From a virus, in the IMG/VR virus record IMGVR_UViG_3300036985_001945, positions 1 to 34,329 of that record: 34,329 nt of DNA. One strand, 5' to 3'. Below are positions 7,543-15,501 of this stretch, in pieces. Position 1 is the first letter of the stretch. Every line of letters starts with the position of its first letter. The notes beneath the pieces were generated by a model that saw only the letters and a program-made list of their open reading frames with translations, had not been told where the DNA came from and ran no database searches. Both the position numbers and the translations under genes were made by a program.

Positions 7543-7719
7543 TTAATCTTCTATTTCTATTTGTCCTTCGCCTTTGCAATTTAGACAAGCTATTTGATGT
7601 CTTCTATCATCATAACCTTCTTCTTCAAACCATACCCATCCGTCACCATCGCAAAACTCACATTCAGTATATTCTTTATCTTTACCAAATATAGGGGTGT
7701 TATAACTTATCTCATCCAT
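7543..7719 (-). CDS. Small DnaJ-type zinc-finger protein
   Basis: A 58-residue ORF with two CxxCxGxG motifs: CEFCDGDG at residues 20-27 and CLNCKGEG at residues 45-52. Two such motifs make one zinc site of the DnaJ cysteine-rich type. There is no J domain, so it is a free-standing zinc module. Its ATG overlaps the upstream stop (TAATG) and it ends 20 bases before the Sak4-like gene. It might bind unfolded protein or nucleic acid; the role is not known. Confidence 0.65.
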   Translation of the reverse strand: MDEISYNTPIFGKDKEYTECEFCDGDGWVWFEEEGYDDRRHQIACLNCKGEGQIEIED

Positions 7720-7886
7720 TATGCTAATGTTTTTATAAGTTTATGCAACTCGATTAATACTTCTGTTTTAGCGTGTTTACGAATAGTTTTTTCTAAACCG
7801 TCATAGGTTTTAGAATCTTCATCTGCTATTTGTTTATTAATGATTATCTCTAAATCAATTAATTTTTCTATTGCCAGTTCTTCCAT
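7719..7886 (-). CDS. Hypothetical small helical protein
   Basis: A 55-residue ORF (starts MEELAIEKLIDLEIIINK, ends LIELHKLIKTLA), predicted almost entirely helical and rich in Glu and Lys. It is the first gene downstream of the structured RNA and terminator at 7903-7942, only 16 bases after the hairpin. Its expression would therefore depend on read-through. The stop overlaps the next start (TAATG). Function unknown. Confidence 0.6.
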   Translation of the reverse strand: MEELAIEKLIDLEIIINKQIADEDSKTYDGLEKTIRKHAKTEVLIELHKLIKTLA

Positions 7887-7894
7887 GTTATTTA

Positions 7895-7942
7895 AAATAA
7901 GAAAGCCTATAAAAAATAGTGTGGGCTATTCCTTATAGGCTT
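7895..7942 (-). terminator. Hairpin terminator inside the early operon
   Basis: The stem AAGCCTATAA/TTATAGGCTT plus the inner stem AATAG/CTATT is followed on the minus strand by TCTTATTTT. It separates the SSB gene from the downstream half of the operon, so SSB and upstream genes may be made in excess over the downstream ones. Confidence 0.65.
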
Positions 7943-7992
7943 AATTCTTTAGTAGTTTAGCTTTTAACTTGGAACCCACATTCCCTAACTGA
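7895..7992 (-). ncRNA. Structured RNA with kissing loops, leader or small RNA
   Basis: On the minus strand a hairpin GGAA-TGTGGG-TTCC (7984-7971) is followed 28 nt later by a long hairpin with an outer 10-bp stem AAGCCTATAA/TTATAGGCTT (7942-7933/7912-7903). Inside it is a 5-bp stem AATAG/CTATT closing the loop CCCACA (7925-7920). The two six-base loops, TGTGGG and CCCACA, are fully complementary and could form a kissing complex. The last stem is followed by a T-rich tail. A promoter-like element at 7996-8003 lies just upstream. No ORF fits in the segment. It may be a short RNA of about 90 nt or an attenuating leader for the 7886 gene. Confidence 0.6.
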
Positions 7993-8024
7993 GTGTAAAA
8001 GTATTGTTTATTTCAATACCTAAA
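7991..8024 (-). promoter_or_regulatory. Promoter-like element with TTTTACACTC box
   Basis: On the minus strand TACTTTTA (8003-7996) resembles the -7 element TAnnTTTG, with a weak TTTA (8024-8021) at -33. The decamer TTTTACACTC (plus 7991-8000) is shared exactly with the promoter at 10342-10351, which supports a common regulatory role. A hairpin GTATTG/CAATAC overlaps the spacer. Confidence 0.45.
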
Positions 8025-12086: not shown

Positions 12087-12184
12087 GGGTATTTTTGTTA
12101 ATAAGATATTATTTAACAATATGGTAACAAAGTACGCAAGTACGAAATAAATACCCTATTACCCTACTATGTATATATTCATAT

Positions 12185-12224
12185 TGTGTGTGTGTAATAT
12201 ATATATATAATACACAAACACACA
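12185..12224. repeat. Imperfect inverted repeat around an AT tract
   Basis: TGTGTGTGTGTA (12185-12196) faces TACACAAACACACA (12211-12224) across an alternating AT tract. The arms pair along 12 positions with a two-base bulge. It could extrude as a cruciform or serve as a DNA-unwinding element. Confidence 0.5.
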
Positions 12225-12323
12225 TCATGAAAATAAAAAATAAATAGTTTGGGTAAATTTATCGTTTTACGGTTGTTGAATTAGTTAAATTATTTATTAT
12301 CAATTATTTACGTTTTTAAAAAG

Positions 12324-12403: not shown

Positions 12404-12437
12404 TTTGTGTTTCGTATTAAAATATTTAGTATATTTG
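12404..12437 (+). promoter_or_regulatory. Bacteroidetes-type promoter of the replication module
   Basis: TTTG (12404-12407), a 22-base spacer and TATATTTG (12430-12437). The expected start near 12442 coincides with the first base of the hairpin that opens the structured RNA at 12441, so promoter and RNA structure fit together. Confidence 0.6.
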
Positions 12438-12440
12438 CAT

Positions 12441-12562
12441 TATCAGATTAACGGACTGATATAAAATAGCTCAATAAAACATTAGGAAGTCCTAATGATT
12501 AAGTGAAAGGTGTTGAGCCCTTTCTTGCTTCGTAAGCAAACTTAATCATTAGGACTTTTTTT
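12441..12562 (+). ncRNA. Highly structured RNA: three-way junction, pseudoknot, terminator
   Basis: About 120 nt from the expected transcription start to a T run. P1: TATCAG/CTGATA (12441-12446/12456-12461). P2: an 18-bp perfect stem (12487-12504/12540-12557). P2 directly encloses P3 GAAAGG/CCTTTC (12505-12510/12519-12524) and P4 TTGCTT-CGT-AAGCAA (12525-12539), with no unpaired base at the junction. The P3 loop TTGAGC (12513-12518) is complementary to GCTCAA (12469-12474), a pseudoknot. An alternative hairpin CATTAGG-AAGT-CCTAATG (12480-12497) competes with the base of P2. Seven Ts (12556-12562) follow P2, so P2 can terminate transcription. It is either a switch ahead of the GIY-YIG gene or a free RNA. 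Confidence 0.75.
12540..12562 (+). terminator. Terminator / attenuator ahead of the replication genes
   Basis: The 3' strand of the 18-bp stem (partner 12487-12504) runs directly into TTTTTTT. If P2 forms, transcription should stop 13 bases before the GIY-YIG start at 12576; the competing hairpin at 12480-12497 would break the lower half of the stem and allow read-through. Confidence 0.65.
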
Positions 12563-12575
12563 ATTTATAAAAATT

Positions 12576-13088
12576 ATGAAAATAGAAAAAATTAACACAA
12601 ACACTGGAGTTTATTCAATTAAAACAAAATCAAACAAACTACTTTACGTTGGAGCAAGTATTAACTTAGAAAAAAGATTTACAGACCATTCATCTTTACT
12701 TAAAAAAAACAAACATAGTAATACTACTTTACAAAATATTTGTAATAAAATAGGATATGATAATTTAATTTTTTCAACACTAAAAATTGGCGATAATGAT
12801 TTATTTTATTATGAAGAATTATTTATTAAAACACTTAATCCTTTATGTAATATAGCTCATAGTTTAAAGATTAAAAAAGACAAAAATGTTAATACTTTTT
12901 TAAATGATATAGAATTTATTTTAAACATGAACTTACAATTAAATAAAAGATATAGTAATTTTAACTTAAAAATAGATATAAGTGTAAGAGAGTTTTATAG
13001 AAAATTAAAATTATATTGCGATGAAAATGAATACAAATTAGTAAAAGGAAATACTAATGGTAGTAGATTTTTTATAATAAATAACTAA
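12576..13088 (+). CDS. GIY-YIG endonuclease with primase-like C-terminal domain
   Basis: A 170-residue protein. Residues about 9-92 are a GIY-YIG nuclease with its key residues present: GVY (Tyr13), LYVG (Tyr24), Arg34, His38, Glu80 in YEELFIK, and Asn88 in LNPLCN. Residues about 132-170 (ISVREFYRKLKLY, then KGNTNGSRFF) match the C-terminal end of the neighbouring primase-helicase (RTFIKWIKKY, EGNTNGQRWF), probably a small DNA-binding wing. The build suggests a free-standing homing endonuclease. It sits between the structured RNA and the primase gene. Its own codon and base use are as AT-rich as its neighbours or more so. Confidence 0.75.
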   Translation: MKIEKINTNTGVYSIKTKSNKLLYVGASINLEKRFTDHSSLLKKNKHSNTTLQNICNKIGYDNLIFSTLKIGDNDLFYYEELFIKTLNPLCNIAHSLKIKKDKNVNTFLNDIEFILNMNLQLNKRYSNFNLKIDISVREFYRKLKLYCDENEYKLVKGNTNGSRFFIINN

Positions 13089-13122: not shown

Positions 13123-15501
13123 ATGTCAAAAGTAAATTATTTTAAGAACTTAAAGTCAGTTGCACCAGATGAAAGACCAAAAGATGCTACTTATTATTTA
13201 GATAGAATTCAAAAAGGAACTCATGAAAATTTAATAAAAAATTTACGTTCTGAAATAGATCCCGAAAAAAAGAAGTTATTAAAAAATACTTTGCCTGGTG
13301 TTACTTTTTGCGGTACTTTTACAAGTAGAAAGAAAGAAAACTTAAAACAAGGTAGCGGTTTAGCTATATTAGATTTTGATAAATTAGATGATGCTTTTCA
13401 GTTTAAAGATAGTTTAAAATCAAATGATTATATTTTTTCAGCTTGGATTAGTCCAAGTGGTAACGGTGTAAAAGCATTGGTTAAGATACCAGTTATTCAA
13501 AATGATGCTGAATATAAAAATATATTTAAGCAGTTAAAAGAGTTATTCCCTTTACTAGATGATAGTGGCTCTGATATTAGTAGATTATGCTTTGAGAGTT
13601 ATGATGCCGATATTTACATAAACTTAGATTCTGAAAAGTTTACACCTACTTATCCATCTCAAGCAATTGAAGTTATTAATTTAGGTACTATTACAAACAT
13701 TCCTTTAATTGATAATGATGAAATAGCTAATAGATTAGTTAAATGGTTTAAATCAAAGTTTGATTCATCTGCTAGAAACTCATCTTTATTTAAATTAGCT
13801 ATTGCTTTTAATGATTTTGGAGTGGATAAAATGATTTGTACTAGATACCTACATTCATTTATTGAAAAGGATTTTAGCGAAAGTGAAATAAATAATCTTA
13901 TTAATTCAGCTTATAAAAATTCAGCTAACTATGGCAGTAAACAATTTGAAGATAAGGTTAAAAGAAAACAGATTGAAAATATTGTTTTAAGTGGCAAAAA
14001 GGATAAAGAAGTAATTGATAAGTTTAAAGAAATAGATGCTGAAAAACTACAAAATGAAATTCAATTAATAAAGAATAACATTAAGTTTGATGAGTTCTGG
14101 AGCTTTAATGATAAAGGTAAGTTAGAAATTTCTGCATATCGTTTTAAATTATACTTAGAAAGTTTAAACTACCGTAAGTACTACCCTAGCGAAAAAACAA
14201 AGACTTTTATATTTGTAAAGAAAGAAAACAAGTTTATTGATATTATTACTGAATTTCAGATTAAAGATGAGATTTTAAAGAATTTAATTATAAACAATCA
14301 ATTAGATGCTTTTGATGTGGCTGCTGAAACATTAGCGTTATTTTCATCTAAATACTTATCAATGATAGATACTGCTGATGTAAAGATGGATAAAGATAGT
14401 AGTGATTACGCTATGATTTATTACTCAAACTTAGCTTTAAAAATATCTAAAGATTCTATTGATAAGATAGAGTATGAAGATATGGATTCTTTTGTTTGGA
14501 AATCTCAAGTAATTAATAGGGATTATGTAGATGTAGACCATCACGAAAGCCAATTTAGAAGTTTCATTTGGTTTGCAAGTGGGCAAAATAGAGAAAAATA
14601 TAACACTATGAAGTCAGTAATAGGTTATTTATTACATTCTCATAAGACTGCTAGTAATAATAAGGCTATTATTTTTAATGATGAAACTATTTCTGATACA
14701 CCTAATGGTGGTAGTGGTAAGGGTATTATCATTAATGGTATAGGACACATGAAGAAAACATCAACTATTGATGGTAAAACGTTTGACTTTAATAAATCGT
14801 TTGCTTTTCAGACTGTTAATACTGATACTCAAGTACTTGCATTTGATGACGTTCGTAAAAACTTTGACTTTGAAAGGTTGTTTAGTGTGATCACTGAGGG
14901 TATAACTATTGAATATAAAGGTAAAGATGCTATTAAAATACCAGTACAAGATAGCCCTAAAATAATAATTAGTACTAACTACACCATTAAAACAGATGGA
15001 GGTTCTTTTCAACGTAGAATTTTTGAATTAGAGATGTCAGATTATTTTGGAGTGCATCACACCCCATTAGATCAATTCGGTAATTTACTTTATGATGAAT
15101 GGAATATTGATGAGTGGAATAGGTTTGATAAATTTATGATTAACTGCCTACAATATTATTTAGAGAATGGACTTGTTAAATCTAAAACTAATAATTTGGA
15201 GTTAAGAAAGTATATCAACGAAACAAGTCAAGAGTTTTACGAATTTTCTATTACTGATAATGCTATTAAAAACGACATAAGAATAGGTAAAAACGAAGCA
15301 TTGAATGAATACCATAATGAATATCCGGATTCTAAGAAATTTGTAACTAGCCGTACCTTTATAAAATGGATTAAAAAGTATAGTGAATATAGAAAACTTA
15401 ATTATACTGAGGGTAACACAAATGGTCAAAGATGGTTTACATTATCTAAAGAAACTACTAACAAAGTAGATAGTATTAACTTTGATGAAACACCATTTTA
15501 A
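13123..15501 (+). CDS. Primase-helicase (BT4734/VirE-N domain plus SF3/D5-type helicase)
   Basis: A 792-residue replication protein. Residues about 15-175 fit the BT4734/VirE N-terminal domain of Bacteroidetes, a primase-polymerase-like fold (LPGVTFCGTFTSRK, LAILDFDKLDD, AWISPSGNGVKALVKI). A helical linker of the primase C-terminal type (about 215-270) follows. The helicase has Walker A PNGGSGKG at 527-534, a Walker B-like VLAFDDV near 570, and IIISTNY near 615. A C-terminal winged helix (about 735-777) ends in EGNTNGQRWFTL. It should prime and unwind at the phage origin. The downstream helicase gene begins one base after its stop. Confidence 0.8.
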   Translation: MSKVNYFKNLKSVAPDERPKDATYYLDRIQKGTHENLIKNLRSEIDPEKKKLLKNTLPGVTFCGTFTSRKKENLKQGSGLAILDFDKLDDAFQFKDSLKSNDYIFSAWISPSGNGVKALVKIPVIQNDAEYKNIFKQLKELFPLLDDSGSDISRLCFESYDADIYINLDSEKFTPTYPSQAIEVINLGTITNIPLIDNDEIANRLVKWFKSKFDSSARNSSLFKLAIAFNDFGVDKMICTRYLHSFIEKDFSESEINNLINSAYKNSANYGSKQFEDKVKRKQIENIVLSGKKDKEVIDKFKEIDAEKLQNEIQLIKNNIKFDEFWSFNDKGKLEISAYRFKLYLESLNYRKYYPSEKTKTFIFVKKENKFIDIITEFQIKDEILKNLIINNQLDAFDVAAETLALFSSKYLSMIDTADVKMDKDSSDYAMIYYSNLALKISKDSIDKIEYEDMDSFVWKSQVINRDYVDVDHHESQFRSFIWFASGQNREKYNTMKSVIGYLLHSHKTASNNKAIIFNDETISDTPNGGSGKGIIINGIGHMKKTSTIDGKTFDFNKSFAFQTVNTDTQVLAFDDVRKNFDFERLFSVITEGITIEYKGKDAIKIPVQDSPKIIISTNYTIKTDGGSFQRRIFELEMSDYFGVHHTPLDQFGNLLYDEWNIDEWNRFDKFMINCLQYYLENGLVKSKTNNLELRKYINETSQEFYEFSITDNAIKNDIRIGKNEALNEYHNEYPDSKKFVTSRTFIKWIKKYSEYRKLNYTEGNTNGQRWFTLSKETTNKVDSINFDETPF

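Follow-up and report, generated by a model that had tools for sequence, protein, structure and literature searches.

Kissing-loop leader RNAs of Bacteroidota phages: an undescribed class in which a 5' hairpin loop is complementary to the loop of an intrinsic terminator, with a probable role in attenuation

The pRNA of phage phi29, a ~120-nt part of the packaging motor, has two mutually complementary loops in a poorly conserved sequence, and the loops of pT181-like plasmid systems differ between compatibility types. In pT181-type antisense attenuators, plasmid replication is controlled through leader hairpins, kissing-loop recognition and an intrinsic terminator before the gene (PMC3753616). 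The IsrK locus of prophage Gifsy-1 comprises a promoter, a small RNA, a terminator and readthrough into a phage gene, with two RNA forms (PMC4825925). GOLLD and ROOL are large structured RNAs that form homo-oligomers; the study on them also deals with kissing loops and phages (PMC12286853).

Here we analyse a 34,329-bp virus record, IMG/VR IMGVR_UViG_3300036985_001945 (the window), and conclude that an RNA encoded in it is a member of an undescribed, widespread phage RNA class, whose defining, conserved feature is the predicted kissing pairing of a 5' hairpin loop with the loop of a terminator hairpin. As in pT181-type attenuators, there are leader hairpins, kissing loops and an intrinsic terminator ahead of a gene; in pT181, however, the loops that kiss belong to two RNAs, the second one an antisense transcript, and there is an antiterminator fold, whereas in the element a single sense leader carries both loops and an antiterminator is not conserved. 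With HK022 put the element shares a promoter-proximal position in phage RNA, a similar size, two hairpins and an association with early operons (PMC9378689), but put suppresses terminators and is none itself, whereas the second hairpin of the element is a terminator and its loops pair. The likeness to IsrK, by description only, lies in the order of promoter, small RNA, terminator and readthrough; IsrK trans-activates translation of its own readthrough transcript, which differs from our reading of the element. GOLLD and ROOL are much larger than the element, which is without an Rfam match. Complementary loops and a variable sequence are common to the element and phi29 pRNA, but the element is instead a terminator leader before unrelated genes.

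The copy that we call element A, and the genes that follow it, have these features:

12430-12437, plus strand: promoter -7 box TATATTTG, Bacteroidota-type; a TAnnTTTG box is common to nearly all elements
12442-12460, plus strand: 5' hairpin, ATCAG-loop-CTGAT
12469-12474, plus strand: 5' pairing segment GCTCAA, which sits in the linker in the window variant
12476-12484, plus strand: A-rich linker AAAACATTA, which recurs among relatives
12487-12557, plus strand: intrinsic terminator, a three-way junction of an 18-bp basal stem and two hairpins
12487-12504/12540-12557, plus strand: perfect 18-bp stem of the terminator
12505-12524, plus strand: 6-bp hairpin GAAAGG/CCTTTC, carrying the apical loop segment TTGAGC (12513-12518)
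12525-12539, plus strand: 6-bp hairpin TTGCTT/AAGCAA, at a junction without an unpaired base
12556-12562, plus strand: T-run of seven T at the terminator end, the first two also paired in the stem
12576-13088, plus strand: GIY-YIG endonuclease gene, directly 3' of element A (Pfam PF01541, E 4.5e-10)
13123-15501, plus strand: BT4734/VirE-N type primase-helicase gene, next in the operon (Pfam PF08800, E 1.4e-19; phrog_28855)

An earlier note, made from the letters of this DNA, had described a perfect 18-bp stem closing two 6-bp hairpins with no unpaired base at the junction, a Bacteroidota promoter at the 5' end and seven T after the last hairpin. All of these are present, the promoter box lying just before the first hairpin, and the transcript is expected to start at ~12442-12444 as predicted from the sequence. 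A GC-containing hairpin followed by a T-run thus lies between promoter and gene, as in intrinsic terminators, and the fold of element A reaches -42.2 kcal/mol against -21.4 +/- 3.2 in shuffles (z -6.6; 0/200 shuffles as good). The complementarity of GCTCAA to TTGAGC, which the note had read as a pseudoknot, is likewise there; weakly significant in the window alone (P 0.045), it gains weight because the family shows the same pairing between an upstream element and the terminator loop with other sequences. The three-way junction is real in the window but does not define the family: the window and L008 show it as a variant, and in both of them the linker is the partner of one of the terminator hairpins (CTCTAAC/GTTAGAG in L008). 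The second terminator hairpin of L008 pairs with the 5' hairpin loop, and possibly, though weakly, that of the window does so too; we tentatively assign such a second pairing to the loop ACGGA (12451-12455) and TTCGT (12529-12533), at the cost of opening two base pairs in hairpin b (12525-12539).

Primase homology alone (BT4734-type) selected the first eight relatives from IMG/VR, whose metagenomic records may be fragments, and ~120 further loci were recruited by matching a DNA pattern of the primase's Walker region. Inspected by eye, every primase relative with enough upstream sequence has a promoter box, a 5' hairpin and a linker, followed by a terminator hairpin with its T-run and by a start codon; the loop of its 5' hairpin is complementary to the terminator loop (for instance GTGGTAG/CTACCAC in L005 and GGTCGAA/TTCGACC in L011); L017, whose primase is only 44% identical, has a kissing pair as well (AACGTGCAGG/CCTGCACGTT). 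A descriptor search located the same layout in many of the ~120 Walker-pattern loci. Across 33 elements the T-run lies 74-126 nt from the promoter, the loop-loop pairing spans 5-10 bp (median 7), and in 32 of them a start codon comes 9-37 nt after the T-run; in L017 ~190-220 nt separate the terminator from the primase, which leaves room for a separate promoter. Terminator hairpins have energies of -10 to -36 kcal/mol for most elements, and some T-runs are weak (L046, L307). The loops themselves are strikingly diverse, with 38 distinct sequences among about 40 elements at a mean duplex energy of -10.2 kcal/mol. One loop pair, CATCCAC/GTGGATG, is common to three otherwise diverged elements (L042:5458-5574, minus strand; L113:7943-8057; and L342, FCL-2 record 37472-37594). 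Many terminator arms contain an internal loop, AGUA/GAA or UGAA/GGAU, with the strands occasionally swapped (L030, L034), which we read as loop-E or S-turn-like and as tandem G.A, respectively; both are subtype-specific, absent from some members and missing in the window.

The window itself contains a second copy, element B, on the minus strand (8003-7903), which the earlier note had missed:

7996-8003, minus strand: promoter-like box TACTTTTA
7971-7985, minus strand: 5' hairpin GGGAA-TGTGGG-TTCC, loop TGTGGG
7903-7942, minus strand: terminator AAGCCTATAA/TTATAGGCTT, with apical hairpin AATAG-CCCACA-CTATT
7719-7886, minus strand: 55-aa ORF, its ATG after element B, no family match

Element B was found by the covariance model R2 (match 8006-7892, minus strand; E 0.004 in the window record). 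Its apical loop CCCACA is complementary to its 5' loop TGTGGG, and both are unlike the loops of element A. Several elements per phage, with loops differing within each phage, are also found in L006, L042 and L052.

Loop pairing served as a selection criterion for part of the set, and the unbiased evidence comes from a pairing-free test of 13 regions, from searches with the covariance model R1 and from the cultured-phage finds. The 13 regions were picked by promoter, terminator and start codon alone, with no kissing criterion; the combined P is 7.4e-9, and a pairing of at least 16 is reached by 77% of true partners and 6% of mismatched ones. A refined descriptor applied to 1.27 Mb returned 17 elements at a score of at least 48, against 0.33 in dinucleotide shuffles. 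All four helices covary in the GAGTAG-subtype alignment A2, the kissing helix included (0.585 vs 0.280; 0/500 shuffles), and the fitted alignment A3 of 26 elements gives 0.633 vs 0.211, an alignment that leans towards its own model. R1, built on the GAGTAG subtype with the kiss not modelled and the window not included, placed other descriptor elements at its top ranks in 1.7 Mb and matched element A (12427-12569) at 29 bits, E 0.024 in 976 kb; the iterated model R2 yielded additional elements. The comparison with related phages proposed in the note found the same layout, loop complementarity kept despite sequence change, and covarying helices.

Searches of reference collections agree with the note's view of this RNA as undescribed. 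Rfam 15 has no match in the window at or above a curated gathering threshold, and permissive scans of the element and eight relatives returned only chance-level matches; turnover of sequence with retention of loop-loop pairing is probably what allowed the element to escape Rfam, and sequence-only covariance searches can overlook RNA classes built on variable kissing loops. A literature search found no description of such an RNA, which is not proof of absence. No DNA similarity to the window element was detected in cultured phages, and an exact search for its stem gave nothing; the GIY-YIG protein as bait retrieved no relatives, and a primase profile search of genome contigs gave none. The GAGTAG-subtype pattern had 86 matches in ~85,000 genomes, 0 of them true elements, and 53 in viral sequences, ~20 of them true; R2 found only plain gene-end terminators in 16 Bacteroidota host genomes. 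Within the limits of these searches the class looks restricted to viruses.

Among cultured isolates, R2 matched the Flavobacterium phages elemoE_6-9C (E 3e-8), 11b (4e-8), FCL-2 (6e-4) and elemoA_13-1A (0.01), and in 16 of the 20 cultured phage records searched it gave only plain terminators or chance matches. Olleya phage Harreka_1, reached via BLAST, and elemoC also carry the element. It lies ahead of small ORFs and a replication protein in elemoE and Harreka, whose kissing loops (GTGGAGG/CCTCCAC and GTGGTGG/CCACCAC) are one compensated pair apart. Over the upstream stretch that ends at the promoter, elemoE and elemoC agree at 98 of 100 bases; in the RNA they agree at 61 of 107 aligned columns, and the downstream ORF differs too. 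The loops of elemoC (TGAGAGC/GCTCTCA) and elemoA_13-1A (GTGAGATG/CATCTCAC) are different, both pairs being complementary, and the downstream protein is identical over the 53 residues compared. One host strain, Flavobacterium sp. BAL314, is infected by all three elemo types; as phages of one strain thus carry different alleles, function is directly testable. Beside a tRNA-Met gene, at least three alleles occupy the same locus (L343, L330 and L345, from elemoC, elemoA_13-1A and elemoA_2-5C), and 68 elemo records exist. With its recurrence in Flavobacterium and Olleya phages and many uncultured relatives, on the replication operon and several mobile-nuclease genes, the element offers a new handle on the timing of gene expression in Bacteroidota phages.

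The elements adjoin co-directional downstream ORFs, with a primase in many loci. The earlier note had stressed a position ahead of the replication genes, and a replication operon does lie downstream in the window, but genes for homing endonucleases or methyltransferases, or small genes, follow other copies. A GIY-YIG endonuclease follows in the window, L132 and L052, and a NUMOD4-HNH endonuclease in L043 and L107; elsewhere there is a C5 cytosine methyltransferase (L042), a DUF6291 protein (L173), a small lipoprotein-like ORF (L302) or small ORFs that match nothing known. Because the downstream genes vary, the element travels as a leader that is not bound to one gene, and the five homing-endonuclease-type cases (three GIY-YIG, two HNH) suggest that such genes acquire or carry it. 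By eye, the gene downstream of L113 resembles the C5 methyltransferase of L042, with no Pfam match. The sequence of the 5' kissing loop is repeated between terminator and downstream start at L043:8192-8197, L046:4198-4203, L080:217-222 and L173:1701-1707, so that the terminator loop could pair with the start region after readthrough in L043, L046/L080 and L173.

We interpret the element as a transcription attenuator that Bacteroidota phages carry close behind a promoter and that acts in cis, its terminator being clamped when the two loops of the same RNA kiss, and put the probability of this reading at roughly 55%. At the level of sequence, the comparisons demonstrate a host-type promoter box, a leader with a 5' hairpin and an intrinsic terminator, and complementary, covarying loops; the start and end of the transcript and the readthrough are predictions. 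With the start codon so close behind the T-run, there is no room for a second promoter between terminator and gene; the only evident promoter of the GIY-YIG gene in the window is before the terminator, and upstream genes are divergent in the window and closed by their own terminators in several relatives. The downstream genes thus seem to depend on readthrough, and the terminator should therefore be conditional or leaky. On leaving RNA polymerase, the apical hairpin would kiss the already folded 5' hairpin and so lock the terminator arm, and most transcripts would stop as a ~100-nt RNA. Expression would follow once the clamp or the terminator is overcome, whether by an antitermination factor, slow folding or a competing RNA with the same loops; private, allele-specific loops would prevent cross-reaction between leaders, and in many members the AGUA/GAA or UGAA/GGAU internal loop may set the bend needed for the kiss. 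Against this reading stand the lack of these internal loops in some members, the window included, the room for a separate promoter in L017, the weak T-runs of L046 and L307, and the possibility of an upstream intergenic promoter at some loci. Nor is an antiterminator conserved (mean z -0.08 over 31 elements, 6% below -1.5; window -1.3): CATTAGG (12480) can indeed pair with CCTAATG (12491), as the note had proposed, but the terminator switch built on this capture is not conserved. It is possible that the terminator is plain and leaky rather than clamped.

A leader peptide was rejected, with no ATG ORF of at least 10 codons in 20 of 24 leaders (4 of 24 have one), and no ligand-like core conserved across subtypes was found. 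The cis attenuator is favoured, with a trans role as its main rival, because there is no conserved antiterminator and no evident leader peptide, and ligand-like conservation is limited to subtypes. In the trans role, the element would be a small-RNA gene whose terminated ~100-nt product acts through its loops on other leaders or mRNAs, including copies of the same RNA from a co-infecting phage, the next gene being transcribed by incidental readthrough. We think this unlikely, though it accounts for much: the element has its own promoter and a mostly strong terminator, loops differ within one phage (window, L006, L042, L052), which specific pairing would predict, the sequence of the 5' loop turns up again shortly before the downstream start in L043, L046/L080 and L173, and IsrK is a precedent (PMC4825925). 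Beyond those four loci, however, no recurrent loop targets near start codons were found in the phage DNA examined, and a free RNA would have no need of the constant spacing to the ORF, compact though phage genomes are. A more doubtful proposal is that the leader serves as a self-contained RNA identity tag: each phage lineage would have a loop pair of its own, and the terminated leader of a resident phage would pair in trans with leaders of its type while these are being transcribed, and so set their termination. If true, this would amount to allele-specific RNA control of replication genes among co-infecting phages, with competition driving loop turnover as in plasmid incompatibility.

Antitermination of the kind performed by HK022 put, in which the folded leader would bind RNA polymerase and read through its own and later terminators, is suggested by the similar size, promoter-proximal place and two hairpins (PMC9378689), and by replication operons downstream whose genes are reached only through the terminator. 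The T-run follows the second hairpin itself, however, and the sequence is far more variable than expected of a polymerase-binding surface. To our knowledge put also needs no loop-loop pairing, and on balance we judge this account improbable. A small-molecule riboswitch whose aptamer includes the terminator arm, the terminator serving as expression platform, could explain the recurrent internal loops and the A-rich linker; since the motifs differ among subtypes and are missing in the window, an alternative antiterminator fold is not conserved and the downstream genes have no metabolite in common, it is very improbable. Hardly credible is a DNA element, either a recombination site or the single-strand origin that the note had raised: the window copy and those of close relatives do adjoin a probable origin region, but the order and orientation of promoter, hairpins, T-run and start codon are fixed, the promoter box and T-run are kept while all else varies, and copies also precede homing endonucleases and methyltransferases, not only primases.

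Two observations concern the sequence around the start of element A. Together, the promoter and the first hairpin of the window (GCATTATCA..TGATA) look like the 5' leader of a DUF2693-type gene at L273:2501-2534 (Bacteroides phage BS-TP2) and in L274, where the rest of the element is missing. Further upstream, the window has a TG-repeat at 12180-12230 (ATTGTGTGTGTGTAA), accompanied by an inverted ACACA partner and dispersed repeats that contain GTAC; such a region, the probable replication origin region, also precedes the element in most of the close relatives (L004-L008, L011).
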